Below are positions 2,806 to 62,476 of a DNA stretch of 64,000 nucleotides, piece by piece. The notes beneath the pieces were generated by a model. That model was not told the origin of the DNA and ran no database searches. It saw only the letters and a list, made by a program, of their open reading frames with translations. How positions within the stretch are numbered: position 1 is the first letter of the stretch; every line of letters begins with the position of its first letter. Position numbers and translations under genes: made by a program. This DNA is from Malus domestica. Taxonomy: Eukaryota; Streptophyta; Magnoliopsida; Rosales; Rosaceae. Location: positions 34,235,501 to 34,299,500 of the forward strand of contig NC_091670.1 in NCBI RefSeq assembly GCF_042453785.1, given 5' to 3'.

Positions 2806-4611
2806 GAATAGTTGAGTCCTCCTCATGAATTAAAAAAAACAATCACTTTAACAAAGTTCAAAGCCCCCACCCCTCCACCGCCCACGTGCCCTAGTAAAAT
2901 GAATGAGGAGGACGACTAGGACTAGGAGGACCCTGCAGCAAAAGCAGAGGAATGTGCCGGAAAAAACATTTCATGCCAACAGACAACTTGATCAAAATTT
3001 ACATTTTCAACGTCTAAATGCAAAAGGTTGCAAAAAAGTCCACCCATAATTATGAATTTATGACTGCATTGCAATATACAGCAAATGTGACAAACAATCT
3101 CATGCAATTATTGCCAGAATCCAATGCCCAATGACCAATTGAAATGCACAACAACGCATGAAATTGTGGATTTTGGTTTCGTTTGCACACCAGTATATTC
3201 AACCCAGATGTCAATCAACAGCAGTAATTCAAAGATCTCACATTTCAAAATCTGAACTAAATATTTGAATCCGAAATCTCGTGTAGTTTAAATTAGATTA
3301 ATTAGAATATCGCTCGGATAAAAAATTAAGCGAACCCAATTCAGAAAATGAGCTTGATAGCAAAAGATGAGATGGGTACCTGTAAGTTTTGCGGTAATCT
3401 TCAAAGAGGCAGAGCTTGTTGCTCATCGGCATCTGCTCGATGGTGAACTGGGTGTAATCCGACAGGGAATCGAGCACCGACTTAATGTTGCTCTTGGGAG
3501 GCATGTAAATATACTCGTCCACATCAAAGAAGAACATCCACTTGGCCATGAATTTATACCGGTGCAAGCAATCATTCACCACCATGAACTGGTTGTGATA
3601 ATACCCATCGAACCTCTCCTGCTCCCTGATGTCCTGCAGCGTCACGTATCCGAGCTCCATCCATGGCTTCAGAACCTCCAGCACCTCCTCATGGATCCCG
3701 CCGGCGTCGTGGATTACGAAATGGGATCTCGGCCCGAACAGCCGGACGTGGTAAGCAATCCACTCCCTCACTCTCTGGGGACTCAGATTTCCGTACAACG
3801 AAGACCCACAGTATAAATAGTCGTATTTTGGCTTGGCGGTGAAGATTCCGGCGTTTAGAGTTCCGGGGGCTTCGGTTAAGGTCTGTATTGTGTCAGTGGT
3901 GTTGAAATTCCGGTCTCCGCCGCTTTCGGTGGTGGCTAATAGGAGGAGCTTACCGCCGGAGTTGTCAGCATTGATGGGCTGGGAGAATGTGCAGTTCACG
4001 ACCACGACGGTGTAGACCCGGCCGTAGCCCCAATCCGGGAGGATTTTGTACCCGATTGAAGAAATGGGTGGGGTCGAATTGAGATTGGGGACCCACTGGC
4101 ACTCGTATTTGGGGTTGGAGAAGACGTGGAGAGGCTTCGAGGCCAGACCCACAATGGCGAAAGTGTTCATGCCGCCTCTGTAAGCTCCCATGGTGATGAA
4201 GCTGTAGGCGGCGGAGCCGTACGGGTTGAACGCCCGTTTCAGGACACCATTGCTGGGCACCTTGTCGAGCTCAACAGATGGCGGCGGAGGCGGAGGCGGA
4301 GGCGGAGGCGGCGGCAGCGGGGAAGATGGTATTGATGACGGTGCTCGCGAAGAGAGTAGTGCTGCAGCTACGGCGGTTGCGTTGGCTATATCTGACTGGA
4401 ACGGTGCTTGGGCGAGGGCCTGGACTTGGGCCGGAGAGATGACTCTGGAGATGCAGAAGCGGAGGTCGGAGGTGGAGAAAGTGAAGCGGGAAGGGATGAA
4501 TTGGAGAAGAGTAGCTAACGTGCAGAGGATTAACAGAGCCGTGAGTAGTAGCCTCAGCTCCGCGGCGTAGTTCCAGACGACTCCGACGGGCAGCTTCTTC
4601 TCCTTCGCCAT
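1716..4611 (-). CDS. GALS: Galactan beta-1,4-galactosyltransferase (GALS), GT92/DUF23 family
   Basis: Golgi type II membrane enzyme that extends beta-1,4-galactan side chains of pectic rhamnogalacturonan I. Two exons, complement(join(1716..2061,3380..4611)), give 525 aa. The 1,318-bp intron has a GT donor at 3379-3378 and an AG acceptor at 2063-2062, and splits an Arg codon between TY and KWGFEKL. A short basic N-terminus is followed by one membrane segment at about residues 19-39, then a Ser/Pro/Ala-rich stem with 12 consecutive prolines at about 100-111. The GT92 domain fills roughly residues 260-505, with the metal/sugar-binding DVD in FFFDVDEYIYMPP at about 363-365. Exon 2 carries the family blocks YAVQPRNVYATGVH and KTTHKTE. 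Length fits the family (about 500 aa). The start is the first ATG after a GA-rich leader. Assignment to GALS1, 2 or 3 is not possible by eye. A broken copy of exon 2 lies at 12957-13296. Confidence 0.9.
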
Positions 4612-4712
4612 TGATGTGGGTAGAGCTTTAATTTCTACTGAACCAGAGAGAGAAAGGAAAGAAGTTAAAATTCTCTCTCTCTGAGTGTCGTTTGCAATTC
4701 TTTTGTTTTGGG

Positions 4713-4722
4713 TTATATATAT
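4713..4722 (-). promoter_or_regulatory. Likely TATA box of GALS
   Basis: The minus strand reads CATATATATAACC about 105 bp upstream of the GALS ATG. It is followed by a GA-repeat leader (GAGAGAGAGAATT) just before the coding region, a typical plant core promoter layout. The transcription start is not known. Confidence 0.5.
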
Positions 4723-4729
4723 GAGCTTC

Positions 4730-5968
4730 TGTTATTTCCAGCTATGATTTAACGAATCTTTGTAATTTTTTTTAACAAATAATATTATTTACACTTAAAT
4801 GAAGTAGATATGTTTAGCTTCATAATAGACTAGTAATAATGTGGTTCAAATTCGTTTTTAACGATAATTGAATCTAAAATCCCTCACTTATAAGTAAATA
4901 TGAATATTACTATATCGTAATACTAAGTGGCATGTTTTATTTTTTATTTTTTATTTTTTTGAGGGAATAATTGTTTGGGGAAGGATGGAAGGAAAGGAGG
5001 GTTTGGGTTTTCGCCGCTTTGGTGAAGTTTTATATGCTTTTGAATAGTTTTGGGAAACTGAAAAAATTAACGGTAAGGATTAAATTGGCCACTTTTAATA
5101 GTTTGGGGGTAAATTAGCTGAAAAACTAATTTCAGGGGGTAATTGACAGTTATGTAATAATTAGGGGGCCCATAGTTCCAATGCCACTGTGAATTGGAAT
5201 ATTCTAAAGACATGTGAAATGAAATCCCAATTAATCTTTTCTTTCTGCCACAAAATTCCAATTAATCAATAAGGTAAAAAAGTCTAATTAATCAACTAGG
5301 AGAATAATCACTTATCATTATAGTCTGAAAGAATTTATTTTTATTTGTAAGTGAACAGTTTTAAATTTAATTTTGGAAATAACATCATTTAGTTTTACGG
5401 TCTAATGATATTCCTCTTCACTTGTAAGTAAGTGAGAGGTCTTAAGGAAAATTTTTGCCGCTAAAGACGAATTTGAATTACATTATTATGATTAGTCTAT
5501 TGCAAGACTTAACCCACTCATCCACCACTTTAGTATAGATAATATTGTTTGTTCAAAAAAAAAAAAAAATTAGAAATAGCGCATTCGGTTCCAAAATTAT
5601 TATGATTGACCTATTATACCACTTAATTATGATCCCCCATTTTTATTATAAATATATTGTTTGCATTAAGAACAAAATTATTAATCAACTAGGATGGAAT
5701 AACCAAATCCTTGTGGAATGCAAAACCAAATTATCCATTCCTAAAGGTTCCTAATGAAAGATATTAGAAACCTCAAAATCTATTTTTTGTTTTTGGTTTG
5801 TATGTTTGTCCGAAATCAAGCATTAGATTGAATATCTAAAACTAACTTGTTGCCTTTCTTGCGCTCTAATTAATTATTGGACTCATGTTTTTATTTATTT
5901 ATTTATTTAATTATGTGGTGTAATTTACTAAATTTCTAAATAAAAATTATCTTAATTGTCACCCTATT
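4730..5968. other. GALS upstream region and AT-rich intergenic DNA
   Basis: No gene seen. The stretch is AT-rich with poly-A/T tracts (for example 5557-5569). Around 5085-5165 there is a patch of spaced TTTTAATAGTTTGGGGG-type units like those in the foldback at 55.4 kb, probably a transposon scrap. Confidence 0.5.
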
Positions 5969-33699: not shown

Positions 33700-36080
33700 C
33701 AATTACTGTAATTACATAAAACTACAGAATTTTCAGAGCAGCCTGAAATCCAAACCAAAAGGAAGAAATTAAAGAACACATATCGAAAATTCGACTGGTG
33801 GGGGGATTGAAAACAAAGAATCCAACCTCACAAGAAAAATCTTGTATGTGAAGAGAGGAAGAAAATGGATGATCCCAAAGAGTCTGAGAGAGGAGAGAAA
33901 CAGGCCGCTAATTTTACACAAAAGCAGAGGAGCTTTCTTAGGAACAAAACAATTTGTCATCCGCTCGTATAATACCTCATTCTTGTTTGCAATTTTTGCC
34001 TATTTTTAGACACGCTTTTTTGTAACCACCACCAATGCACAGACACAGCAAACAGAGTTGGCCTTTTGCTGTACAAAAACCTAACAAAAAAACAGTTAAA
34101 AGTTCAAAAATTTGAGATTTTCTGTGTATATTTTTATGTGGGTTTGTCTTGGATTGCCAAAATTTGAAGGTTAGGGTATCAAATCATGAGATTCCAGGAA
34201 AAAACAGAGGATGGAAACAGAGGAGGACATAATTGCACTGCTAAAACAATGAGAAAATTTGGTGTGAAAAAATAGGGATTGAATAAGAGAGAGAGACGTT
34301 GGTTTTTACTTTTTAGTCCGTTGGGAATGTAGGGCCATATGGTTGTTTCTTTTTTCTTTTCGAGAGTGGTTACGCCCAATTATCTGTCTTATTTTTTTAC
34401 CTATATTCATAAAAAAGAACAATTAGATTTGTTTCGATTTAGAAACCGAGATTAAAAGTAAGTAATTTGAAAAATAAGGGGTAATCCAAAACACTCAATT
34501 CGTGTAACATCTCACATCGACCAACGAAGAGGGGGTGATGTGTTTTATATGTACATGTTCATCTCCTATAGCACGATATTTATTGTAAGGGTGATCCATT
34601 TGAGTCGATGGTTATAAATTTTTGGTTGTAGCATATTAACAATTGCATTGATTAGATTACCATATTAACACACTAGCCTTTGAATTCTGTTTGCTCCACC
34701 TTCAATGCCATTTTTCGAGTCAACGCTCCATCCAATTTTTTGTTTTTGGTGTTTTCTTATCTTTTTAGGTTGGATTTTGTGACATTTCTAGCATGTCCAA
34801 TGCAATATTATAACACAGAATGTTGCTATCGTTTGGTTAAAAGTGAACAGTACCAAAAATGTTTCGTTAAAACTCCCCTGAATAATACAATAGCTATCGT
34901 TAGGGTTTTTTTTTTTTTAAAAAAAAAACTTCCCTTCACTTGTATAATAACATATGGTATACTGATAAAAATAAAAAAACTGTCCATGTTCTGAACACAC
35001 TGAAAAATCTCTCCTGATTATGAAAGAAAAAGTAGACAGTGGGTCATCATCCGTATTCATTATATCGCCAAAAATTACAATGCATGAGTGATAACTTTAT
35101 TTTAAATTTAATGACTTTTAATGACTAACATCATTTGAAAGAAAGAAAAAATGACTATTACTCAAATATTGTTTTACTGTGTAAGTCTGGTAATAATCAA
35201 ATTAGTTAGAATAATGTGTTACCCGTAATTTTTAAAAATTTAGTGTAATTTTCATATCGTAATATTATATCATCGCCAAACTATTGATGAAAGTAAAATG
35301 CTTATTCACTTACCAAATAGATGACGAGCATCTCAGCAGGTAGCCAGGAAGTATGTACTCATATCAATTAACTTCATATAATGACTCTGTTAATATTAAT
35401 AATCAATAATGATACATAATTTCACTGACATATCGTCATTACTATCAGAACTTAAAAATAATTCACCTCTTTATCAATATCGATAGCATAAACACTGAAT
35501 ATTTTCATTAATATCTGTGCAATGACGAATAATTTTTTCATCCATCATTTCCTATAAGGACTATGTTAATATCGAATAATCAACAACTAATACCCGTTGT
35601 TTAGTTTCCACTTTACTTTTAGGCTAATATTGATGTTTGATTATAATTTTTATTAATTTTTCGAGTCGAGCGATATTATCTTATTAAAGTTCCACGAGAT
35701 ATTTTTGACAATAAAACAATATGGTAACTACTTACTATATCGGTTTTAGTGATAATTTATATTCTTTACTCCAAATCATTTTTCATCAAATCCACTTAGT
35801 TCGGGATCCGGACCGTTGAAATTTGATCCAACATTTACTAACAGGGAACCTATTTAAAAGTTATAATAGTTGTAGCAACGGTCCTGATCAGGACTAGGTG
35901 GATTTAATGGAAAGGAATCCCTTTCCCTTTAGTGTACGAACATGCTATTTGGTGAAAAATTGAAGTTGCTAAATTGAAATTAATTCTCAAAAGGGGCGTT
36001 TCAAAAGATTTTCTCATTTTTAGGTGACAAATGTAATTTGGCGAGAGGTCAGGTGACAATTTAATAGCATTCACGAGAAA
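33700..36080. other. RING-gene upstream region and AT-rich intergenic DNA
   Basis: No gene seen. It includes a truncated TRIM-like LTR (34503-34588), a piece of a dispersed repeat (about 34826-34890, AAAGTGAACAGTACC...TTCGTTAAAACTCCC) that recurs near 63.5 kb, and at about 35795-35930 a foldback fragment related to that at 1.0 kb. Confidence 0.5.
34503..34588 (+). mobile_element. Truncated TRIM/Cassandra-like LTR fragment
   Basis: It begins TGTAACATCTCACATCGACC and continues with GGTGATGTGTTTTATATGTACATG, matching the first half of the LTRs at 20504 and 20737. The downstream half, primer-binding site and second LTR are missing. Confidence 0.7.
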
Positions 36081-36103
36081 ATAAGCCCGCGCGTTGCTGC
36101 GGG

Positions 36104-39100
36104 AACCTGTTGTTTCAAGTGTAATTGGATGAATAAAACACACTTAAGTTGAATAAATTCATTACAATTATGAACAAACAGTTTTTTTTTTATATACATT
36201 CAAATGAGCTGACATATAAACACATTGTACAATGAGTGGGAAGAAACTGAACGTCTTTGATTAGAAAGAGATGGTTTTAAAAAAAGTTCTGTTTCCTTAC
36301 GAAACAGAAGAAACATGTAGTTCACATGTAAAATTTTAGTTACCAAATCCAAAATAAAAAACAAAAAACAAAAAATGTGACTCTATATAGCTTTCTTATT
36401 ACACAAAAATATCCCTTAGTTAAAGCATGCCACACATCATCACATTGCTATTATATAAAGTATATTCCTCAGTGGCAAGTAATATACTCTCCTTAGCATG
36501 ACCTCTCAATCCCCTCTTTTATCTCCCTATAATCGTACAACAACCCATAAATACGGTGCCCCTTTAAAATCCAAGCATGCATTAAAAATTCAACAATACA
36601 GTTACAAAATCTCTATAAATGAACATACCTCAAAAAGCCAACGGCCGAAGTGACACTGCACACACTGCACACACTGCATGCACTCACATACGCTGCATAC
36701 ACACACTCACACACACTGAAGAATGAACGCATTATATTCAGTTAGAACCATTCAACTTTAAAAGCAGTGAGACCTTCCAAAGGCACAGCCTTACTGACCT
36801 CGGTTCAAATAACCAAATTGAGAACAACTGTTGAATTTTAGAAAAGTTGTACAGAGGGGAAAAAAAGAAAAAAAAAAAGAGAACAATCCTATAACCACAA
36901 CTGAAAAACAAAATCAAAATGAACAGAATAAAATATCAGCAGAGCATGAACACTAACATCCTTTGAAAACATGTGTTGGTTACGTATAATATATATGCGC
37001 ATAAATTAAGAAAATGACTTGAGTGCCCTAGCAGTAGTCTTTACGTTGAACCAAATCACTATTAGGTTAATTGTATTGATTCACACATCTTCTTTTATGT
37101 GCTAAATCTCTACTAAATTGCCCTACGAAAATGACATAAAACTAATTAAATTCCCAAGATATATGAGAAATACAACTTTTAAAAGTGTGACAATACATGC
37201 AGCACCAGGATGTTGCAGAACTCACTGCCCCAATGTAAGATTCGGTTTTTGTCCAATGTATGTATAAGCTTAGATACATCTGAGAATTTACTTTTCAACA
37301 GTTGTTACTCTCATCGTCTTTTGAGAGAGAGATACAAAGGTTAAGATTACAATGGGAAAGAGTTAGAATCCCTCTAAAATACTAAAGAAAAGCATACCTA
37401 CAACAGAGTAAACAACTGTTTGTCCTCATAGCAGTTTCTCAGAGCATTTATGCTGTCAGAAAGATAGTGCTCCACTCCAGAAGGATGGACAAATTTACCA
37501 GATGGAGACTGACCCAAAGAAAACATAATTAAAAGTTAGCATCTGACGAACAATTAAGGTGATGCAAAAGGGCAACACGTGATGTGAAATTATTATACCA
37601 AAATATCCAAGGTCTGTTAATTTAATCACCCAATAAAACGGACAGAAATTAAGCACAACAATATCAATATTAAAAGGAAGGAATAATATGAAACCTTGTG
37701 CATAGAACGTTCATCAGAATGAATCACACAACAATCAAGGATGGACAAATCACAAAAGTGACAATTAAAGGGCACCTAACGGACACCCCCATCTTTCTCT
37801 GCAATCGCAGAAATCCCTCGGGTTTCAGGAAGCAAATGGAAAACGAAATGCTTTTCCATCCCCTACCCATACTCATACCTCCCTTACCCGTTCCCTTTTA
37901 CCCTCACAGAAAATCCTCCCATCTCTCCCTCTCACCCTTGTCCCATCTCTCTGTCTGCAAATCGCAAAAAAGAAACCCTAAACAAATCCCTGAAATCCCT
38001 CACCTAAATCCTCTCACATTTCTTTCGAACACCCCTTATCTCTCTCTCTGCAAAACCTAAACCAGATCTCCTAAATCCTATCTTTGACACCCGACATACA
38101 GCCAAGAAGCCAAGATATTAAAGCAATCTCTACATAATACTGTGGAACAATGAAGCAAAATGGTACTTGTTTCTTGTCCAAAACTGTTGGTGCCGCCGCA
38201 CATTGTTATCAGTTAAGGGTTTATAAAAACCCACCCAAAAATTACCTTCATAAAAAATGCCACCACAAACCTATTATGCCCAGTCAATCAAGAACCTACT
38301 TGACTAATTTCAACTCAGCAAATGGTCTAGGTTTTTAGTTTTTTATGCAGTAATTATAGAGCACATGGATAAATTTTTTGACCATTTATACCCTGTTGTG
38401 GTTTCATAAGCTTCTCATTTTCTTAGTATCAAGCTCTCTTTGTGGGCAAAAAATATAATAATAATAACAATACTAATTCAAAAAGTAATGGAGATTACCA
38501 AGGAAATGAGTTTTAGGTTCTGAATGGTTTACCGATTCCCATCCATTTGGTGTGAAGACTTTCTTTGTTTTATGTTAGGTGACGCACAAACTCTCACAAC
38601 TGGTGTTTCAACAACCGACATTGCTCCTGACAAACTGCAAGAACAGAAATTGCATTATATGAAATTAGTTAAATTATTCTTTTCATCGTAAGTCATAAAG
38701 TTCGAAACTTTCTATCAAAATAATTCAGAACCTCAAACAGAGAACAAAACTTCTACATTGATAATAACAACCCCGAACAATGAAAAAAACATTGAACTGA
38801 AATCAAATCATGTGATACCTTTTCAGGTGATGCCCCTATCAGGAGATCAGATTATGTACCCATAATGGACTGGAAACAAAGCACTCATCTTAGTAGTACA
38901 TTACACAAAATCCCATTTAATTCTTCACCAAAAAAAAATACATCACATTTAAATAACAAAATATAAAAAAATCCAAGAAAGTAAGTTCATAACCGACAAC
39001 CAATCATCCAGAACAAACCTCATCAAACCCAAACCCAAATACAAAAGCCACTGACATAATCACCCAAAATTCACTACTGTAAACACAAAACCCACCAAAA

Positions 39101-40323
39101 AGTTACCTTCATAAAAAATGCCACCAAAAACCTATTAAGCCCAGTCAATAAAGAACCTATTTGACTAATTTCAACTCAGCAGATAGTTAGATTATTGCCC
39201 ATTAAACAGGTAGATCAAAGTAGAGTATATCCAGTTAATATTACAGTACAAATTTTGCATCCCAAGGAAAAGTACCAAATTCAACCTCAACCAATAAAAT
39301 AGCATTAAGCAATGTGAATTTTCAACTATTTTGACCAAATAAATAACTTTCCATTCTAATTTCATCAATTTCTCAGTAAATTAAAAAGGCAAAAATATAT
39401 CATTAGAAGCCAATTCAACAATTAACAAAAAAATTACAGAAATTAACTCAAATTCGGTAGCACAGCCTGCTATAAAGTAGAGGAAGTGTATGAGTAATGG
39501 ATGTCCAGGGTTGGTCCTTATGCAGAAGGAAGCATAGGAAGCATAAATGGGATATCAAGTGAGGATTTCAAGTAAATTCGCAACAACACAAAACCCAACC
39601 AGCAACAATTTGTTCATTACATCTTAAAACACAAAATTTTGTCCGAAAAATAGGACATTTAATGCAAAACGCTCAAAACTTTGCCTCCCAAAACTAACAT
39701 CTGAGAAAGCATTGCACTTCTTATCTTTAAAAGCATGAATGGTGAACTACATAAAAGAATAAGAATTTGCAATGAACTAAATAAAAACACACTTTTCACA
39801 AACATTATTCGCACAAAAATTAAAACTGTATTGAGAAACTCACCATTTTGACAAATAATAAATGATTTTAGGATACTTGATCACTAATATAAATTTGCAT
39901 GTTTAAGAGACAATCACAACCTGAATCCTTAAAAAGGTTATTTACACCTAAAATGAAACAGACATATCCAAAGGACATAACATAGTGATCTTTTGTGAGT
40001 TTAATATCTGGACTGGAGTTTATTTTTAATTTTAGTGTGGTGTTTAGCTGTTCTGGTTGGGTTGTTCCAGGGAGGTCTGTTGGACTGTTTACTGGGCCGG
40101 AACAGATGTTAAAATGATGTTCCATTCCTGAAGAAGAGATAAGACCATATCGCATGACAACTTTTAAAATATACAGGTTCATATAACATAGAAAAATGAA
40201 CAAATAAATGCACACCCAAATTACATGTGCCTGTCAAATTAAAAGACGACTTCTTGCTGAAATGATGACGGTAAGAAAGTCAAAGAGAGAAGAACAAAAG
40301 TATAAAAAAAATGAATACTTTAC
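36104..40323. other. AT-rich region with exon-like fragments, no intact gene
   Basis: No complete gene. Two minus-strand segments look like orphan exons: 38529-38634 (acceptor TTCTTGCAG, then 34 open codons including SVVETPVVRVCASPN) and 37398-37508 (acceptor CAG and donor GTATGC, 36 open codons including PSGVEHYLSDSINALRN). Neither protein was identified. A CACACTGCA-type simple repeat covers 36655-36720. A direct repeat of about 97 bp lies at 38226-38322 and 39086-39184. The pyrimidine-rich tract 37790-38090 resembles leader or intron sequence. Confidence 0.4.
38226..39184 (+). repeat. Direct repeat of about 97 bp, copies 860 bp apart
   Basis: Copies at 38226-38322 and 39086-39184 share TTACCTTCATAAAAAATGCC and TTGACTAATTTCAACTCAGC with few differences. 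They could be terminal direct repeats of a small element or the result of a local duplication; TG...CA ends were not found. Confidence 0.65.
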
Positions 40324-40985
40324 CTGCATATATTGCACGACAGTGCTAGTATAATCAACTACTCTCCTCTGTGTAAGCTTTCTCATCTTTTATCCAAGAA
40401 AAGTGTCAGCATGAGCTGCAACAAACAAACCATTTGTCACTCATTATAAAAAAAAGGGAAAATTTATTAAATTCTGCACTAAACCTCTTAACAAAATTAA
40501 ACCACTATTTTCAAATATCATTTACACCCTTGGCCTCACTGGCCCACCCTTTTAAATTGCAAATCTCAATTAACTTCAAGATCCAAAACCAATTCTAAGG
40601 GTTTAATGCGCTTTAAAGTTGAAAATCCCAATCAACAATAGAAGTATAATGCAACCAAATTCTTGTTTAGGTACTTACCCACAATTCAAATTGTTTTCTT
40701 TTATTCTCCATTAATTTCCAACCGAAACAAAAAAGAACCAGAACAAAATAGCAAAGACAAAGGCATAATTTGGTACAAACCATCATAAGGAGGAAGAGGA
40801 TGAGCGAGCACAGATGGGTTGTGATACTCCGGGGGCATACCGACGGCTGACGCATCATTGGGGCTGGTGGCGGGGGGGGCTATGAAATATCCACCTTGCT
40901 GCTGACGCGGCTGGTGTTGTTGCAAATGTTGGTGCTGATGTTGAGAGTGCTGTTGTTTGTGGTGTTGTGGATCAGGGTATATCAT
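40324..40985 (-). pseudogene. Truncated FY-like (WDR33/Pfs2) gene, first two exons only
   Basis: FY is the WD-repeat subunit of the plant pre-mRNA cleavage/polyadenylation complex. Exon 1 (40781-40985) encodes a His/Gln-rich N-terminus starting MIYPDPQHHKQQ and ending HPLPPYD. Exon 2 (40324-40415) continues AHADTFLG, then TAA, then KMRKLTQRRVVDYTSTVVQY. The latter part matches the highly conserved FY segment just before the WD40 domain. Exon lengths, the split Ala codon and GT-AG borders fit an intact gene structure, but codon 77 (40390-40392) is a stop and no WD40 exon is found below 40324. Retained introns exclude a processed pseudogene. Assignment rests on the RRxVDYTSTVV motif. Confidence 0.8.
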
Positions 40986-41449
40986 TGTCACCCCAAATCA
41001 AAGTACTAAGAGGAAGAGAGGAAAAAAAAAAACCAAAACTCTAGGATTAGAGAACCGAGAAGTGGAAAGTTGCACCAATTTAAACACCTTCTGCCGAGCT
41101 AAAAATTGAATTCAATTTGCAAAGGCAGTCACACTGGCTATGAATTCAAGTCAAAGAGGGTCTAAAGAGTGAAATTTAGAGTTTCAACACAGCATGGCCT
41201 TCTCATAGATATGGTTTCTTTTCATGATTTGAGAGAAAACCCCATCAATCGATCGACAAACTTGAACAATTAAAGAGTAGCAAAGCATGTAAAAAGCAAA
41301 AATTTAAAGTTGTTATGGATCCATATTTCACTAAAGACCACACATGCAGAAACAACACCCCCCCTCCCCCCAATTCGAGCATCACCGCTCAGTCCCCCCT
41401 TTTTTTTCCCTGAAATCCTACACCCACCCCTGTGACTGCAAACCATGCA

Positions 41450-41551
41450 AACCTCTTTGTGACACCGACATCACCCCTCCCCCCTCCAATTAAACGCATG
41501 AACCTCTTTGTGACACCGACATCACCCCTCCCCCCTCCAATTAAACGCATG
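41450..41551. repeat. Perfect 51-bp tandem duplication
   Basis: Two consecutive copies, 41450-41500 and 41501-41551, each starting AACCTCTTTGTGACACCGAC and ending ACGCATG. They look identical, so the duplication is recent or maintained. They sit between the FY-like and DDI1-like gene fragments. Confidence 0.9.
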
Positions 41552-41597
41552 AACATCATACAGTGAATTGCATATAAAACAACATTATCAAGTATAC

Positions 41598-42028
41598 CTC
41601 GAGGCGGCATTGGATACGATCATTTTCAAGTCTTCATCTCCGACACCAAGAGCACTCCACATCTTAGAATTCCTCATCTCCTTACACATTATATAGCAGA
41701 TGCTGCCGCTGAAGCAGCACCCATGTCTGCTCAAACGCGTCAAAAAACATATCATGCATTCGTTATACATTTCTCTATTAACTAATCAGCTAACTGAATT
41801 TAATTCCAAACCAAAAAAGTTTTGAACTTTTTTCTACAATCATATTCAGTTCTTCATCTCTTACTCTAAATCCCAATTACAGAAAGACCTAAACTTTACT
41901 TCAATTTAATGTTGTTTTCCCCCAAAACAGCACAATCCCACAAAAATAAAGTTGAAAAAACAACAATAAATCATGAATTCAATTAAATTTCTCACCTCCA
42001 CCTCTAGCAGAGCTTTCACATTTTCAAC
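41598..42028 (-). pseudogene. DDI1-like gene fragment (ubiquitin-like domain exons)
   Basis: DDI1 is a ubiquitin-receptor aspartic protease with an N-terminal ubiquitin-like domain. Exon 41996-42028 encodes VENVKALLEVE, a signature of plant DDI1. Exon 41598-41726 encodes TWVLLQRQHLLYN, then after a 1-bp insertion (AATGTGTAAGG where AATGGTAAGG is expected) KEMRNSKMWSALGVGDEDLK and VSNAAS, the end of the ubiquitin-like domain. Splice borders are retained. The protease and UBA parts are absent. A further exon-like piece ending at donor 42953 may be the decayed first exon, but this is weak. It is co-oriented with the FY fragment 600 bp away. Confidence 0.8.
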
Positions 42029-42254
42029 CTATCACAAAAAAGAAATAAAAATCAAATTCAAGTGAAAAAAAGGAGAACTTGAACTTCGAAATTAATTGAA
42101 AGAACTATAAAATCAATTGAGGGTTTTTGCTGAAGTGAAAAGTAAGGGTTTTACATTCTCTTAAGGATCGATGTCTAAGGAGAGGATATGGTCTTCTCCG
42201 TTCATCACTATGATCTTCATCTTCTTCAATTCGTCGCTGCGATTGGATCTCCAA

Positions 42255-42287
<33 letters not shown>

Positions 42288-43207
42288 AAATATACCCAAA
42301 AACCCAAAAGCTAGAAACTAAAACCTAATCACCCAAAATCCCCAATCCTTAACCAAAAACATAATCAGTCACATACACTACATATTGAATCAAATACGAA
42401 AACTCAAATCAAACGCCTTCAATTGCCTAAAGTTTCAAAATTTCAATCATTTGTCGAGCCTAAATTTGAAAAATTACAATCCCCTCTTGACTAACTCCAT
42501 CCAAAGATTTGAAATACCAAAAAGCAAATAATTCCACTAAAACTTAAGTAAATTCGGTATAAATTCAAATCAACTTAACAAAAAATGACAAAGCTACCAA
42601 TCAAAATAGGAATTCTGCAACTACACACACTATTAATAGTGCTATGCCAAACTCATATTTGAATGAGGTCCTCTACTATTGAATTGAAAGATGGCTGTTC
42701 TTTTTCTAAATTAGGATGATCTCACCAATCAAAATTACAATGCTATGCAAAACTAATATTCGTAATCTATACCAGCTCTAGCTTGCCTCCACCCGTAACA
42801 TCTCCAATCTGAGAAATACAGCGCAATTTCCGAAGAAAAAAAAGAGTCAGAAAACCTTAAAATCCCCAAGAACCCTAATTTATAAACTCCCAATCAAACG
42901 CAAAAAGGATAGAGGAAACCCAAATAAGGGAAATTCGAGAAATTCAACATACCGTAAGATGCTTTCTGACGGCCAAATTCATCGACAACGGAGGCGGTTG
43001 TCAATCGTCACTGTACCTCCATTTCGCGCCCGCCATGTTTAAGGCTTTCAACCGTCATTACTTGGTTTGTGGGCTTCACATCGAGAGATAAAGGGACTTA
43101 TCAAAACAAATCCCACTAACCTCCCTATTTAAACACAGAACGTGAAAAGCAATTTCAAATCAACAGCCATATGAATCCAGAATCATTAACAGTGATGCTT
43201 GGCTGAT
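42029..43207. other. Fragment-region spacer with CA repeat
   Basis: AT-rich sequence with a CA microsatellite at about 42266-42287. A GC-richer patch at 42960-43045 contains an ATG followed by a short frame and a GT donor at 42952; it may be the degenerate first exon of the DDI1-like fragment. Nothing else is recognised. Confidence 0.4.
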
Positions 43208-43390
43208 AAGAATATAGGGCACAGATGAAACCTTGCTAAACTTGGCATTTGGTCATTCAAACAATTGAATGAAAGAACAAAATTATGTCCAATCATTCAC
43301 AAACAACCACTTTTGCCATAATTTTCTTCTTTCATTCAATTGTTTGAATGACCAAATGCCAAGTTTGGCACGGTTTCATCCTAGATTCTT
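43208..43390 (+). repeat. Long foldback, 75-80-bp arms with short loop
   Basis: Arm 43208-43287 pairs with arm 43317-43390, leaving a loop of about 29 nt. The pairing is nearly perfect over AAACTTGGCATTTGGTCATT and TCAAACAATTGAATGAAAGA. It could be a small MITE or, if transcribed, a small-RNA precursor. It lies just outside the gene-fragment region. Confidence 0.85.
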
Positions 43391-44928
43391 GTAAAAAAAA
43401 AAAGTTTAAAGAAACATGAAGCTTTAAAGTAACAGAGGCATAAATGAAAAACCTTGGAATAAACTTAACTTAAATGTAAAATGGCAATTGGGTCAACAAA
43501 TCTTGGAATAAAACAAAATCACAAAATGAAAAGCACCTCCAATAAATTGACATTTTATACTTTTGGCTGGCCAAAAAATATCTATCTTTACTGGAATATG
43601 CAAATAGAAATGCAAATTGACAAAAACATTGAAATTGAAATGCACAGAAGCAAAGCAAATTACAAAACCTTAAACCAAATGACAGCTTGGAAATGGAAGC
43701 AAATGTGAACTGTTTTTAATCATTTAGGTTTAAATGATTGGCAAGAGAAAGGGCCATTCTTTGAATCAACATGATAAAAAACAGAACATGATTTATTTGT
43801 TCAAATAACCGAAACTGAGAAAAACAAATTACAAAAAAAATTGAGAAAAACAATTAAATTTAAATGCACAGAACAAAACAAATTGAGAAAAACACTTATA
43901 TCGAGAAAACACTTAAATTTCTTTATGCACAGAAGCAAAGCCAAGCACAAAACCTCAAACCAAATCACAGCCTGGAAATGCCAGGGCTTCAAAGCATAGA
44001 CATACTCTAAATCTAATCTAATTAAAGCTAATCAAACGAAATTAAAGCTTATTAAAACAAATAAGAACTTGGAAATAGAAAAGCACCATAATAAAAAAAA
44101 CGAAAAAGCAAAGATTGAAGATGGAAAAGGAACCTGCAATTAGGTTCTCGAGACGCAAAGAGACCAAGAGAGCGACAAAAAAATACAATGCAAGAAACCC
44201 TAATTTATTAGAAAAAATCATTAACAGTTAAAATCTAGGTTTATTCGAACAGTAACCTAGGAATTGAAAGAAAGCTTACCTTTTGAATCGAAGGGAAACC
44301 AGCAACAAAAGGCTTCAATCACTACATTTGCATGTTCGATTGATCAGTAAAATACACAGAATAAGAGTTGCATCACATAGCAATAAATTAGAGAGAATTC
44401 GAAGACAAAAGGAGATTTGAAATGTGTAAGAAACGTCACAAACCCTAGAATTCTTGCCGACGAAAATCACACTTTCGAAACCAACCCCTTTCTCTCCCTC
44501 GAATCGTACACCCCCTGTGACTCTGTCTGCCTGCAAGCCGCATGCCTTCCTCTCACCAAATCCCTATCTCTCTCCCTCCCTGTCTCTCTCTGCTCGCTCG
44601 CTCTCTCTCTCCCGACGGCATGCACTCACTGAGTGCCACTGCAGCTCACAGAAAGAAGGAAATGAAAGTCTCCAACCCACCCAACCCGTTCGAAACCATA
44701 CAGACCAAAATGACCATCGCACCCCTGCCTTTCCACGATCATCAACACGCGGCATGAAGATCAGTGGCAGATAGAGTCAGTGGCAGCCTCGTAAATAAAG
44801 TAAAATTCGGACCTAAAAACTGTTCATTGATACAGTGCAATTGGAAAGCCTTCTTTAGACTAAAGTAATATATTTTAGCTTCGCAGAGAAGGAGAGAGAG
44901 AGTGAGCACTGAAAGAAAAGTTTTGAAG
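43391..44928. other. Intergenic DNA and complex I gene promoter
   Basis: AT-rich, with short internal repeats of AAATTGAGAAAAACA type at 43800-43920. The part 44450-44620 is CT-rich (CTCTCTCTC runs), probably promoter or leader of the complex I gene on the plus strand. No separate gene is supported. Confidence 0.45.
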
Positions 44929-45026
44929 ATGCCGATAACTTCAACGATGGTCGGAGCCCTATTGGGTTTGGGCACCCAGATGTACTCCAACGCCCTCCGC
45001 AAGCTCCCTTACATGCGCCGTAAATT

Positions 45027-45062
<36 letters not shown>

Positions 45063-47145
45063 TCATTTCTCAGGTGATTGAATTGACTCATGAACCCTAA
45101 CCCCCCAATTTGTCGAATGATCCGATTCAGATCCTTGGGAGCACGTTCTAGGCATGGGATTGGGCGCAGTTTTTGTTAACCAGCTCGTCAAATGGGACGA
45201 GCAGCTCAAAGTGGACCTCGATAAGATGCTCGACAAGGCCAAGGCCGCCAACGAACGCCGTTACATAGGTAAACATTTCTGACCCAATTTAACAATTGGT
45301 TCATTTCTCAATTTCTCATGACTCAAGATTGTATCTTTCGACAACCCAACAATCCCATTTGTGTTTTGGCCTCTCAATTTTTGAGCTTAATTTTGATAAG
45401 TTCATTATTTAGATGATTTGCTAAATTTTGAAACACGCTATGATTAATATTAGAACCCCATGTCTCGTTTGATGGATCAGAATACTGTTTTCAGATGGTA
45501 TTTGCCTGTAATTGTGGTTTGAATATTGTGGGAATTCTGAATTAAAACGTTTTAGGTGAAATTATGTTGGATATTGTGGGAATGCTGAATTTATAAATCC
45601 ATTAAAGTCTCTCAAATTGTCAATTGAATACACCCCCTTATTGTCACTCTTTCTTTTCCTGTCCCTCCTTGCTCTCTAGCTCAAGGTTGTTCATTAAAAA
45701 GGTGGGATCTTTATATAAATGTGAATTAAGAAGACAATTTCGATATTCCTAACCAGGAAATCCCAGTCCTTGTGATACAGGGCTACCTAATCTCTGAACG
45801 TGATGCCAAGGTCGTATTGGCCTATCAGTCTACTAGATAATCTTACTGTTTATAAATTTTGTAGTATTTTTTTTACTTTTGTTTTACAGTAAGGATGATT
45901 GAGAAGAATATTTTCTTTTCTTCCTTTTATTACAGTCATCTAATCCATCGTGTGTCTTGTTATATGCTTTAAAGGCAAAGACTAAAGAATTTGTGCATGT
46001 AGTCCCTTATTAGTTTTTCATCTTATTGTTTGGTGTTCCTCTTAATTTCCTATATTATATGGTGAGCTGAAAAATTGGGATCATTTTGAATCATCGAACT
46101 GAAATTAGGTCTGAAATATTGTCAGTGAATCATTTTCCATTTGTTGACCCCCACATTTACCCCGCCCCTAACTGACAAAACCATGAAGAAGGATACTATT
46201 AATAAGCAATTTTTTTTTTCTTTTGAATTGTTAAAATGATTATGGGTCAAAACAAACTTTTGTGAGGGAATGTACTGATCCTTGGGATTATTTATCTATT
46301 AGGAGTTCTTCTTTTGCTAATCGTTTGGATTCTGGTTTGGTCCTTACTTTAAGCTCTGTTGTGCTCGACTAGACTATGGTTGAATGCTTTGAATTTACTT
46401 TATGCCCTCATGCTACCCCTGCTTTCAACTCCCTTCATCCCTTCTAGCTTTCCTCTAATTAAATTGACCCATCAGATGATTTTTCTTCCACATCTTTTGT
46501 CTGTCAGATCCCTTCATCCTTTATGTTTCAGTATATCTTAAGCTTAAAATTCTGAATTATATCCCTATGCCTCCAGACTTGCTAAGCACCCCTAGGATTA
46601 TTTGCTTTTGGAAGTATAAAAGATATTCCTTTTTGGTCAATGTAAAAGATAATCTACTCATCAGTGAATAAATGGTAAAGTGTACAGTTCTACATGTGGA
46701 AGTGATCCGGCATGGAAAACTTGGTAGCAAGTGTTTTCACCAACCGAGCCCTTACGGTTTGTGGATTTTGTTGGGACACACATTCATTCTTGTATCTTCT
46801 GCTTGGTAAAAATATGAAGAAATGCCAAGGGCGTTTAACTTATTGCATACTTGGTGTTACACTAGAATTTGAATTGCTTTAGCAGTTTTGTGTTTTTATT
46901 TGGGTGCATAAGTAGTCTCTAGCATTAACAGCTCTCCTTGGTTGGTCCACTACAATTTTTTTTTCCATTAATTGACTTTTATGATTGAACTAATTTGATT
47001 GGTATTCTTTTCATTTTATCATTTATGTATAACTCAGGAAGTAAGACGGAGAATTTTTTGTGATTTAATCTGTGCAAGCATATTGTTACGGTTTTTTTCC
47101 CTGCTTAATATTTCTCGTCTATCTGCAGATGAAGATGATGATTAG
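44929..47145 (+). CDS. Mitochondrial complex I small subunit, ESSS/NDUFB11-like
   Basis: Small accessory protein of the mitochondrial NADH dehydrogenase (complex I) membrane arm. Exons join(44929..45019,45131..45268,47129..47145) give 81 aa; all borders GT-AG. The protein opens MPITSTMVGALLGLGTQMYS, with a short hydrophobic segment, then RKLPYMRHPWEHVLGMGLGA and a second hydrophobic stretch (GMGLGAVFVNQLV), a charged helix (KVDLDKMLDKAKAANERRY), and the acidic tail DEDDD. It matches from memory the plant proteins annotated as complex I ESSS subunit (At2g42310/At3g57785 type). The last coding exon is 17 nt, after a 1,860-bp intron. Intron 1 carries a CT microsatellite at 45031-45059. No upstream in-frame start is needed. 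Confidence 0.85.
45031..45059. repeat. CT microsatellite in intron 1 of the complex I gene
   Basis: An uninterrupted run of about 14 TC units just downstream of the exon 1 donor. Pyrimidine tracts near plant 5' ends are common. Confidence 0.9.
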
Positions 47146-47984: not shown

Positions 47985-50900
47985 TTATGTGTAAGAATCT
48001 AAATTCGTCTTCTCAAACTCCACCGACCGATGATTAAACACATGTAGTAGTTGATCACACGCTTCTCGTGACGAAGGCCTCTCTGCCGGGCTGGTTTTTG
48101 TGCACTGCAGTGCAATTTCAAGAACCTGGAACGCGGTGTTTTCTTCTCCGGACAAGAGTGGTTTCAGTGCAGGGTCTATCAACTCTTCACGAGTAGAATC
48201 CTGCATTTCAATATGCATCTCGACCCACCTCACCATGTCCATCTCCACGCCGAAAGATGAATCTGTCGGCATTCTCCCGCTTACAAGCTCCATTAGCACA
48301 ATCCCCATGCTGTAGACATCACTCTTTTCTGATGCCTTGAGTGAATAAGCATACTCTGAAATCATATGACATATAGTTAGAATCAAACGCATAGATCATT
48401 CATGTCAAAATCAAACTCTAAATTCGGTATCCGAAGTACAAGAAAGAACATAATTCAAAGCATAACTGATTAGTACCTGGTGCTATGTACCCGTAGGATC
48501 CAGCAAACCATGTATTAGATTCTGTGTTAGACTCGTTGTTCTCGTTAAGTGTCTTGGCAAGGCCGAAATCCCCAAGATGTGCCTCCATGTTCGAATCTAG
48601 CAAAATATTGCTCGACTTAATGTCCCTATGGATGATCTTTGGCACGCAGTCATGGTGGAGATACTCCACTCCTTGAGCTAATCCAACCGCAATCTTTAGC
48701 CGTGCCTCCCAATCAAGGCTCTTCTTCTTCTTGTTACTTTGCTCTTGGTGTATCCAATCATACACACTTCCGTTCTCCATGTACTCGTATATTAACAGAT
48801 TGGATCCTGCTCCTTTGTTGCTGCAGTACCCCATTAACTTCACCAGATGCCGGTGTCTTATCCTCCCAAGTGTCTTAATCTCCCTAGTGAAGGTTTTGTT
48901 CGCCATAAGATCATCTTTATACAAAATCTTCTTGACTGCCACAGTTTCTCCTGTTCGCAGTTCAGCTTTGTAGATTACTCCCGACCCTCCTGAGCCAATT
49001 ACAAATTCGTTGCTCAGATTCTTTGTGGCGTCCATGATGTCTTTCCATTTGATATCTGGCTTGACAGAACCGTTTGAGAAAAGCAGTCTTCGCTGAGCAT
49101 GGGAAGAACTGGACGAGTACAAGAAGTTCATTTCACGGGCTTTCCGAAAAGCTTCTCGCTTGTGTTTCAGGAGAGAAGCAGCTCCGAATATCAGTAGAGC
49201 AATTGCAGATAGAGTACATATTGCAGCAAGGGCTACCACTGCCAATTCTGTTGGATCAGACTGCTGCTTTCTGCCAATGCAGCTTCCAAGAGGGCTTCCA
49301 CAAAGATCCAAGTTTCCCTCAAAAGCCTCAGCCGGCCAGTGCGAGAGTTGCTTGCTCAACTTTCCTTGCAGATTGTTGTAAGACAGATTAAGCTTTCCCA
49401 AGCTAATCATCCCACCAACTGGGGAAGGGACTTCGCCAATTAGTTGATTGTGAGATAGATCAAGCACTTCAAGTTTTGACAGAGTCCCAATAGAGGCCGG
49501 AATCTGACCACTCAAATTGTTGTAACTAAGGTCTAAAATGCTCTGAAGATTTTGGAGTTGTCCAAGCTCATAAGGCAAGTCACCATCAAATCTGTTCTGT
49601 GAGAGCCGAAGCTCATACAGCTTGCCTAGTTTCCCAATGGCAGGAGGGATTGGACCTGAAAAATGGTTGTGGTCGAGGTTTAGGACATTAAGCGATTCCA
49701 GGTTACCAATCTCAGCAGGGAGGGTTCCAATGAGAGAATTCTCACTCATGGAAAGCACTAGCAGTTTAGAACAATTGAACAATTCAATCGGAAGAGCCCC
49801 GGTGAAGCGATTTGAGGACAGCTTCAGCTCTCCTAACTGAGGCAAACCTCCAAACCACTGCGGAATTGTGCCTGAAAGAAGGTTGTCGTTCAAGTCAATG
49901 TGGGACAGTTTCTTGCACGATGAAAGCTCGTCCGGTATTGATCCTGTGAGTGAATTTCCGGACACATCTAGCAGTGATAGCTCACTGATATTCCCCAATG
50001 TGTGTGGGATTTTACCAGTAAACTGATTGTTCCCTAATCTCAACCTCTGGAGAGATTTCGAATTTCCGAGCTGGGAAGGAATCTCATGATCAAATGCATT
50101 GTCAGTGACATCAAACGAAAGAAACGAACTGGAGCTACACAATGCAGCAATGCTTCCATTCAACTTGTTTCCCGATAAATTCACTCTAGTCAAATTCGCC
50201 ATATTAGCCAATGTATCAGGAAGATTACCTTCAAGTGAGTTGTTGTACAGCATGAACTGCTCCATAGCTCCAAGGGACCCGAAAGTTATCGGTATCCCGC
50301 CAGATAAACGGTTATCCGCCAAGTCAAGAATAGTCAGCTTGTGACAGTTCCCCAATGTGGCGGGAATCTCACCCACCAACTCATTCTGCCTGATATGAAG
50401 TAAGTTCAAATCTTTGAGCCTCCCAATAGTAACCGGGATCTCCCCGCTGAACCGATTTCCAAAAAAATCGATCATCTGCAAGCTCGAACAGTTGCCAATC
50501 TCCATTGGGATTTCTCCAGAGAGCTGATTGTCGTAGAGATATAGAATCTCGAGCTCCCCAAGCATTCCAATCTCGCTCGGCAGAGGGCCCACCAAGTTGT
50601 TATGGTACAGAATAAGTGACTGCAGATTGCTGAGGTTTGATATCAACGGAGAAATCGAACCAACCAAGCTGTTGTTGTGGAGCAACAGATCAGTCAGCTC
50701 CACTAGTCCATAAATCTCATCTGGGATTGACCCGTTGATCAAGTTATTGGACAAGTCGAGCTGCTTCATTGATCGGCATTGGCTTAATTCTGCTGGGATC
50801 TCGCCGACAAGTCCCGAACCTGAAATCATTAGGAGCTCCAAACTTGTTGTGTTGGAACATAGATTTCTTGGGATGACGCCGGAAAGACTGTTGTTTGATA

Positions 50901-51882
50901 AAACTAAGGTTGCCAGCTGAGACATGGTGCCAAATTCGGCCGGAATACCTCCTGTGAGCTTGTTCACGGATAAATCAAGACTCTGAAGATTTCCCAGTTG
51001 AGATATGGACTTTGGTATTGGACCTTCAAGTTGGTTCCCCATGAGATTCATGTATCCGAGTTGACTCAGTTTACCGAGTTGACTCGGGATTTGGCCGGTG
51101 AGGCTGTTGTTTCCCAAGTTCAGGAGCTGGAGGTTACCGAGACGGCCGAGCTGCGCGGGGATTGTTCCGTTGAGGGTATTGTTGGCAGCTGTGAAGATAG
51201 TGAGGCTGGAGCAGTTCCCCAACTCAGCAGGAATCAAACCTTCGAGTTGATTGAGCTGCAGGATTAAGTTCTCCAGTAGGCCGAGTCGGCCGAGTTGGGG
51301 AGGTATTGGACCGTTGAGGCTGCATGAGGCCAAACCAAGCGTGACCAAATTGACAAGTTTGCCAAAAGTGGCGGGAATGGATCCAGTGAGCCCATTGTCG
51401 CCGATTCTCATCACTTGGAGACTCGTCAGCGAGCTGAGATGATTCGGGATGTCCCCAGTGAGCTGGTTTGAAAAGAGAAGCAAAGATTCCAAGGACGTGA
51501 GGTTAGAGAGGGTTGGTGGGATGGGACCCGAGAGGCGGTTAGAAGAGAGATCAAGGTGGAGCAGGTTTTGCAAACTACCGAGTGAGGGCGATATCGACCC
51601 GGCGAGTGACGAGCCGGAAAGGTTGAGCCCTACCGCTTGGACCGAGTTGTCCAGCGAGTCAAGCGCACAAGTCACACCTCTCCAAGTACAGAAATTTGGG
51701 TCGCTTTCGGACCAGCCATGCAAAACATTTTCTGGGTCTTCCACAATTGCCCTCTTCACCTCCAAAAGCACACTCAAAGTTGTATTGCCATCGAGCTTCC
51801 CCTCGCAGAACATAAACCCTAATGAAAGATGCAGAAACAGAGCAAGAAAAAGAGGCAAAATTGCATCTCTTACTAAAGCCAT
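47985..51882 (-). CDS. GSO1/GSO2-like: LRR receptor-like kinase, GASSHO (GSO1/GSO2) type
   Basis: Plasma-membrane receptor kinase; Arabidopsis GSO1/SGN3 and GSO2 perceive sulfated CIF/TWS peptides to control Casparian strip and embryonic cuticle integrity. Two exons, complement(join(47985..48355,48477..51882)), give 1258 aa, close to Arabidopsis GSO proteins (about 1250). The start is the ATG at 51882. A signal peptide covers about residues 1-28. An LRR N-terminal cap (NFCTWRGVTC) is followed by roughly 30 plant-type LRRs to about 850. The transmembrane helix is about 880-905. The kinase, about 955-1240, has GSGGSGVIYKAE, VAVK with Lys984, HRDIKSSN with Asp1087 and DFG Asp1105, so it looks catalytically competent; the RD motif is present. 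The single intron interrupts GYIAPEYAY in the activation segment, its usual place in this LRR-RLK subfamily. A partial duplication of the start makes an upstream ORF. Confidence 0.88.
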
Positions 51883-51935
51883 TTTTCTCAACCAAAACAG
51901 AGCAGCTCGAAGCTAGATGATGAACTGGTTGGAAT

Positions 51936-61938: not shown

Positions 61939-62101
61939 CCTACAAGCATTTCAAATCTTGTACCATTTCTTTTTCTTTTCCATCTTGAGCTATGAGCAGC
62001 CTTAGTCTACAAATCCAAACCTTCATTTCATCACCAACCTAGAAGCTGCCAAGTCTAGAACTTGCTGAATGATTTGAATACAAGCAAAAAAATCGTCTTG
62101 C

Positions 62102-62476
62102 ATGGCTAGTAATGCAAAATCATCTACCACCACTTTTACAACCCTCCTCTTCTTTCTTCTCATCACATTTCAAATCACCGTGGCTCAAAAGAAGCATAGC
62201 TTGCCAATCCCAGGTACCAGTAGTACTTCCTCGAGATCACTTGGAGTTGGAGTCATCACTAAGAAAAATGCTATCGTGGAATCTTCTACAAGAAGACCCT
62301 CACACGGCATCATCAATTCAAAGGCTGATCACGATTTTACAGGCGAATCGGGACGAAGGAGAGGAGTAGGGTTTCAGGTTCGTCGTGGGAGGCAGCCAAT
62401 CCCATGGAAAGAAAATATGTTCAGAGCCGGTGCACATGAAGTTCCAAGTGGTCCGAATCCCATTTCAAATAGATGA
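62102..62476 (+). CDS. CLE41/CLE44: CLE41/CLE44-type prepropeptide encoding TDIF
   Basis: Secreted signalling peptide precursor, 124 aa, single exon. An N-terminal signal peptide (about 1-29, hydrophobic FTTLLFFLLITFQI, ending TVAQ) is followed by a variable basic region and, at residues 112-123 (62435-62470), the dodecapeptide HEVPSGPNPISN. This is identical to TDIF (tracheary element differentiation inhibitory factor), which is secreted from phloem and perceived by the receptor PXY/TDR to maintain vascular stem cells and suppress xylem differentiation (established knowledge). One Arg follows the motif, so a C-terminal trimming step would be needed. Prolines at positions 4 and 7 of the motif are the usual hydroxylation sites. 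It is close in length to Arabidopsis CLE44 (112 aa). CLE41 and CLE44 cannot be told apart here. Confidence 0.95.
   Translation: MASNAKSSTTTFTTLLFFLLITFQITVAQKKHSLPIPGTSSTSSRSLGVGVITKKNAIVESSTRRPSHGIINSKADHDFTGESGRRRGVGFQVRRGRQPIPWKENMFRAGAHEVPSGPNPISNR

Follow-up and report, generated by a model that had tools for sequence, protein, structure and literature searches.

A 64,000-nucleotide stretch of the Malus domestica genome (C10:34235501-34299500, hereafter the window) carries on its minus strand a single 8,795-bp element, at positions 36074-44868, within which all of the gene fragments described below are located. We consider it very probable that this element is a non-autonomous Helitron-like (rolling-circle) transposon that captured a piece of a DDI1 gene first and a piece of an FY gene later, and then spread. 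It has defined ends, a 3' hairpin, an insertion point between A and T without duplication, copies at unrelated sites and sister elements that have no FY piece. An earlier note on this DNA had described a cluster of gene fragments at 37398-42953; the true unit exceeds that cluster. The captured parts are the 5' ends of DDI1 and FY, the 5' flank of an RBM22-type gene and probably a sucrose-phosphatase exon; the captured pieces come from three or four genes, at least two of them taken up successively.

Searching the genome (651 Mb in 19 contigs) for other copies of the cluster and for its parent genes, as the earlier note had proposed, was productive on both counts. Full copies of the element are located at C10:42.307-42.315 Mb and C3:33.731-33.740 Mb, a truncated copy at C13:36.946-36.951 Mb and a partial copy at C7:0.56 Mb. 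Kimura two-parameter (K2P) distances between copies are 0.014 for C10 and C3, 0.051-0.052 for the window and C10 or C3, and 0.061 for the window and C13. Since the copies are colinear over several kilobases, they could in principle reflect segmental duplication or a decayed ancestral gene neighborhood. Their likeness, however, ends at the same two points, and in 30000-52000 outside the element there is no stretch of at least 80 bp common to the window and the C3, C10 and C13 sites. Apart from a 46-bp stretch (34832-34877) matching near the C13 copy and dispersed repeats common to the C13 and C10/C3 flanks at non-corresponding places, no other flank likeness was seen at these three sites. An ancestral neighborhood is likewise at odds with the distribution of the genes: FY genes are on C2 and C7, DDI1 genes on C11 and C3, and RBM22-type genes on C1 and C7, the C7 pair being more than 22 Mb apart. 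The two outcomes that the earlier note regarded as damaging to gene capture, a syntenic decayed locus or neighboring FY and DDI1 genes, are thereby removed within this one genome, the genes being apart and mostly on different chromosomes. Segmental duplication was rejected on the lack of shared flanks, and we give explanations of this kind next to no chance of being correct.

Read on the minus strand, the element begins, directly after a host A, with TTACTTTAGTCTAAAG and ends with CCCGCAGCAACGCGCGGG, eight further nucleotides and CTCG, followed by a host T; written out further, the 3' end is CCCGCAGCAACGCGCGGGC(A/T)TATTTTCTCG, again followed by T. The 5' border recurs elsewhere in the genome: 21 of the 26 places listed for the 5' terminal module (best 40 of 307 candidates) stop at query positions 1918-1922, equivalent to window positions 44867-44871. 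An A precedes all four copies that were read at the 5' end without conditioning, and TTAC follows the A in these four and in eight further 5' ends, the latter having been picked by a pattern that itself holds ATTAC. At the other end, T follows 18/18 3' ends read: 15 of the CTCG type or its CTAG relative on C7, and three belonging to relatives that carry DDI1, two of these being local duplicates. CTCG is found in the window element and in the C3, C10:42.3 Mb and C10:19.66 Mb copies, and related ends have CTAG or CTAA. The 3' hairpin, a CCCGC...GCGGG stem that is disrupted in the C10:19.66 Mb copy, lies 12 nt before the element end, in agreement with the canonical 10-12 nt. The A^T insertion point and the lack of a target duplication (the element ends show no direct repeat of at least 3 bp) likewise agree with canonical Helitron1.

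Several same-strand, intron-bearing 5' gene fragments are typical of Pack-MULEs too, and Pack-MULE capture was the alternative origin named in the earlier note. The only inverted repeat of at least 30 bp in 35900-45300 is nevertheless an internal hairpin, and when the terminal 100 nt at the two ends of the window copy are compared, exact inverted matches reach 5 nt at most (shuffled mean 6.5). As neither long terminal inverted repeats nor a 9-bp target duplication was found, capture by a Pack-MULE or another terminal-inverted-repeat element was rejected and we regard it as extremely unlikely. What stands of the earlier attribution is therefore its Helitron form, on the basis of the ends, the 3' hairpin and the A^T target; of the TC...CTRR ends with a 3' hairpin that it expected, the hairpin is present but the letters are TT...CTCG. 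The internal hairpin with 69-bp arms also occurs at places on C2, C4, C5, C11 and C16.

Alignment to the genes bore out the earlier description of FY-like and DDI1-like fragments lying side by side on the minus strand as intron-bearing 5' gene parts (Table 1). The FY/WDR33-type fragment matches intron-bearing genes at C2:34.62 Mb and C7:3.18 Mb with 76-85% identity in separate pieces. Further FY-type exons are present at the C2 locus, and a query assembled from the C2 versions of exons 2 and 3 together with a single WD-repeat piece matched WDR33 (3.7e-23). The stop codon previously noted in FY exon 2 is real: the in-frame TAA is present in the window, C10, C3 and C13 copies (4/4 examined) and in neither the C2 nor the C7 gene. 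The C10 and C3 copies have an FY piece whose border coincides exactly with the intron-2 splice acceptor CAG; the window copy has lost this CAG through a small deletion. This single coincidence at the FY border does not show a mechanism. The window copy is nearer to the C2 gene (distance 0.124) than to the C7 gene (0.157), but with a distance of 0.121 between the two genes and C2 on the shorter branch, either may have been the donor.

Table 1. Features of the element, in window coordinates
Feature	Position	Strand	Basis or remarks
Whole element, 8,795 bp	36074-44868	minus; 5' end 44868, 3' end 36074	Copy borders at C10:42.307 Mb and C3:33.73 Mb, flanks unlike
3' end: hairpin CCCGCAGCAACGCGCGGG, then CTTATTTTCTCG, then host T	36074-36103	minus	Genome matches; ends and flanks read
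3' module	36074-38231	minus	In part or whole at many related places
Probable sucrose-phosphatase C-terminal exon fragment	37398-37510	minus	PF08472, E 5.4e-7
Module adjoining the DDI1 fragment in sister elements	39189-39846	minus	In part at 13 loci
FY/WDR33-type 5' fragment: upstream region, exon 1, intron 1, exon 2, intron 2	39854-41307	minus	Alignment to C2 and C7 genes
FY exon 2 with in-frame TAA	40324-40415	minus	TAA in 4/4 element copies, neither gene
C-rich filler between FY and DDI1 fragments	41308-41536	minus	Overlaps 51-bp tandem duplication 41450-41551
DDI1 5' fragment: 5' untranslated region, exon 1, intron 1, exon 2, part of intron 2	41537-42252	minus	Alignment to C11 and C3 genes
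RBM22-type (CCCH-RRM) gene 5' flanking/untranslated region	42255-42598	minus	81-82% to C1:22.28 Mb and C7:25.64 Mb
Internal hairpin, 69-bp arms	43224-43380	.	Kept in C3, C10 and C13 copies
5' terminal module, starting with TTACTTTAGTCTAAAGAAGGC after host A	44472-44868	minus	Common to 26 other places among matches listed

The DDI1 fragment is 83.8% identical to a gene at C11:3.41 Mb with UBL, RVP and UBA exons and 77.8% identical to another DDI1 gene at C3:3.11 Mb. The 1-bp insertion reported earlier is also real; it lies in the second exon of both the window and the C13 copy, whereas a 120-bp deletion has taken this stretch out of the C3 and C10 copies. Exon 1 of the window copy contains a stop that is missing from the other copies aligned there. 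The 51-bp tandem duplication is likewise particular to the window copy, where it is exact; the C10, C3 and C13 copies do not have it.

The order of capture can be read from 13 sister loci (L029-L032, L034, L037-L042, L044 and L045, some of them local duplicates of each other) in which the DDI1 fragment stands beside a module ending at the equivalent of 39846. Between this point and the DDI1 border at 41537 the window has 1,690 bp, while L029, L031 and L037 have a 69-bp bridge and L030, L038 and L045 a similar stretch; L038, L041 and L045 also share the 3' end of the element, with CTAA or CTAG. Since the sister elements join DDI1 to the module almost directly, FY would have been added after DDI1, inside an element that already bore it. 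The converse, a Helitron-like element in which the FY cassette came with the first DDI1 capture and was later lost from the sisters, gains some plausibility from internal deletions seen among the copies here and from the statement of Dong et al. (2011; PMC3288121) that Helitrons can lose internal sequence. The bridge, however, includes the start of DDI1 exon 3, matching the C11 DDI1 gene, and is missing from the FY-bearing window copy, where the FY piece and filler take its place. Because the FY-less sisters hold these 69 bp, the FY-less state is the ancestral one, and loss of FY from the sisters is very unlikely. FY thus appears to have arrived later, inside the DDI1-bearing element, displacing 69 bp, and repair of an internal break with filler DNA fits this gain better than does read-through at the 3' end.

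With respect to timing, the element FY pieces differ from the nearer (C2) gene by a K2P distance of 0.124-0.139, about equal to the distance between the two FY genes (0.121). The copies differ from each other by 1.4-6.1% and, in their FY pieces, from the nearer FY gene by 12.4-13.9%; the capture is therefore old, and the spread of the copies came later. The presence of the FY stop in all four copies examined indicates that it predates their spread, so the FY coding piece appears to have been broken already when the copies dispersed. The stop thus arose between capture and spread, and what the copies dispersed was, for FY at least, a non-coding passenger.

The matches of 42255-42598 at C1:22.28 Mb and C7:25.64 Mb lie just 5' of an open reading frame (ORF) whose reading matches RBM22. 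Of two orphan exon-like pieces in the earlier note, the one at 37.4 kb is probably a sucrose-phosphatase C-terminal exon, to judge from its match to PF08472 (30 bits, below the curated 34.4-bit cut-off; E 5.4e-7), and the piece recurs in the C10:42.3 Mb, C3 and C10:19.66 Mb copies. Its 41 residues, searched against the PDB, returned lectins and other matches only, which we took as chance. The second piece, at 38.6 kb, had no Pfam match at E ≤ 1, and no source gene was traced for it or for 42797-44471. A query of 36040-39900 gave 53 matches (best 40 of 458 candidates) with recurrent borders near 36057-36073 and 38231.

The ends of the element define a larger family. At up to three mismatches the 3' end has 220 genome matches and its reversed control none; the pattern accepted A and C equally, and a hand count of the 36 matches with zero or one mismatch gave 20 CTCG (a group that includes the window, C3 and C10 copies), 13 CTAG and three others. 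The 17-mer ATTACTTTAGTCTAAAG from the 5' end has 342 matches at up to one mismatch, compared to 89 for the reversed control. A same-strand 5' end lies within 20 kb upstream for 24 of the 52 3' ends tested, where 1000 random trials gave 0.2 on average and 3 at most; for four of the 52 the order or the strand of the 5' end is wrong. Same-strand pairs recur at spacings of 6-19 kb. The Rep domain PF14214 has 142 matches (best 150 of 177 candidates), with several open frames near 1,488 aa. At C7:10.887-10.903 Mb, a Rep match is situated 11.1 kb downstream of a 5' end and 5.0 kb upstream of a CTAG 3' end, and by eye two others, at C8:27.18 Mb (1,490-aa frame) and C11:3.30 Mb (673 aa), have a same-strand CTAG 3' end about 9 kb downstream. 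Five exact 5' ends of the family are found within approximately 85 kb at C3:2.70-2.79 Mb (L048-L050); three of the loci there are about 97% alike, apparently with flank included, and were therefore probably multiplied locally.

Several observations weigh against a Helitron-like origin with this order of capture. The 5' end has TT where canonical Helitrons have TC, and the 3' end has CTCG in place of CTRR. A search with the left flank, which is single-copy save for a short repeat, found no empty site; the right flank was not searched. The FY junctions show no clean microhomology. The unrooted DDI1 tree places the genes beside the window lineage and not apart from all of the elements (support 0.86), so that two separate DDI1 captures, which this tree taken alone would allow, retain some residual chance; the neighboring module common to DDI1-bearing elements speaks for a single capture. 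In addition, 28 of the 52 tested 3' ends have no 5' end in the exact-match list, the C7 Rep match is interrupted by a TAA, its open frame being 212 aa long and the piece after it holding 800 aa, and an intact driver with exactly these ends is not in evidence. The short repeat in the left host flank (35769-35928) is MITE-like (miniature inverted-repeat transposable element), partly matches both strands and has 52 matches, the window included (best 40 of 417 candidates).

Taken together, by its strict terminal letters the element is not a canonical Helitron1, but it appears Helitron1-like in its working, to judge from the hairpin, the target, the CTAG-ended relatives and one Rep match between ends of this type. 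We propose that a RepHel protein of related elements would nick the element and copy it by rolling circle. An ancestral element would first have acquired the 5' part of DDI1 and then multiplied. In one lineage, breakage at the border of this fragment would have been mended with the FY gene piece and filler, at the cost of 69 bp, and the resulting FY- and DDI1-bearing element would have spread to C3, to two places on C10, to C13 and probably to C7.

Capture of this type is well known, and only the unusual end letters (TT, CTCG) stand out. Stepwise gene capture has been described for maize Helitrons, and these (Dong et al., 2011; PMC3288121) resemble the apple element in being non-autonomous, in carrying multiple gene fragments, in having sisters that differ by one captured piece, and in the 3' hairpin and A/T insertion. 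Unlike the apple element, with CTCG in its subfamily and 5' TT rather than TC, they are reported to have a highly conserved CTAG at their real 3' termini. For insect Hel1 Helitrons, PMC6544945 describes internal acquisition of filler DNA in steps; both systems gain new sequence stepwise within the element, which is what the mending of internal breaks would be expected to produce. The filler-DNA model in that text predicts junction microhomology, and end junctions of 2-13 bp support it there, in contrast to the apple element, which has no clean junction homology and extra filler on both sides. Helitron2/Helentron elements of Fusarium also have ends deviating from TC/CTRR (PMC5148889); unlike ours, they have asymmetric terminal inverted repeats and other targets. 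This assignment was rejected: with an A^T target, CTAG-ended relatives and no asymmetric terminal inverted repeats found, the apple element is closer to Helitron1 than to Helitron2/Helentron. A search of the open-licence literature found nothing on Helitrons with CTCG versus CTRR ends and, among the papers listed, no evident study of gene fragments captured by Helitrons of the apple genome.

The element sits between a leucine-rich-repeat receptor kinase (48418-51912, minus strand, 1,164-aa open frame) and a group of large ORFs, also on the minus strand, at 30-34 kb; two of these ORFs gave no Pfam match. Elsewhere in the window, part of a glycosyltransferase family 92 gene lies at 3298-4731 (minus strand), and a 132-aa ORF at 62078-62476 (plus strand) with the C-terminal end AHEVPSGPNPISNR, which we take to contain the CLE41/CLE44 (TDIF) dodecapeptide, is a candidate vascular CLE peptide gene.

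The captured fragments most likely encode no protein, and spread after the FY coding piece was broken argues against protein-level selection on the FY fragment. A more far-reaching possibility, which we put forward as speculation and think rather unlikely, is that a Helitron-like lineage swapped CTRR for CTCG and TC for TT while staying mobile and gathers sense-oriented, promoter-bearing 5' ends (FY, DDI1, RBM22); it would thereby disperse host promoters, and the resulting chimeric transcripts or small RNAs might in turn affect these RNA-processing and proteasome-linked genes. The element offers an ordered record of capture in a plant genome: DDI1, then FY at its edge, then spread. Searches that demand CTRR would miss such CTCG elements, which are frequent in this genome, and the CTCG end allows a direct test of what plant RepHel requires at the 3' end.

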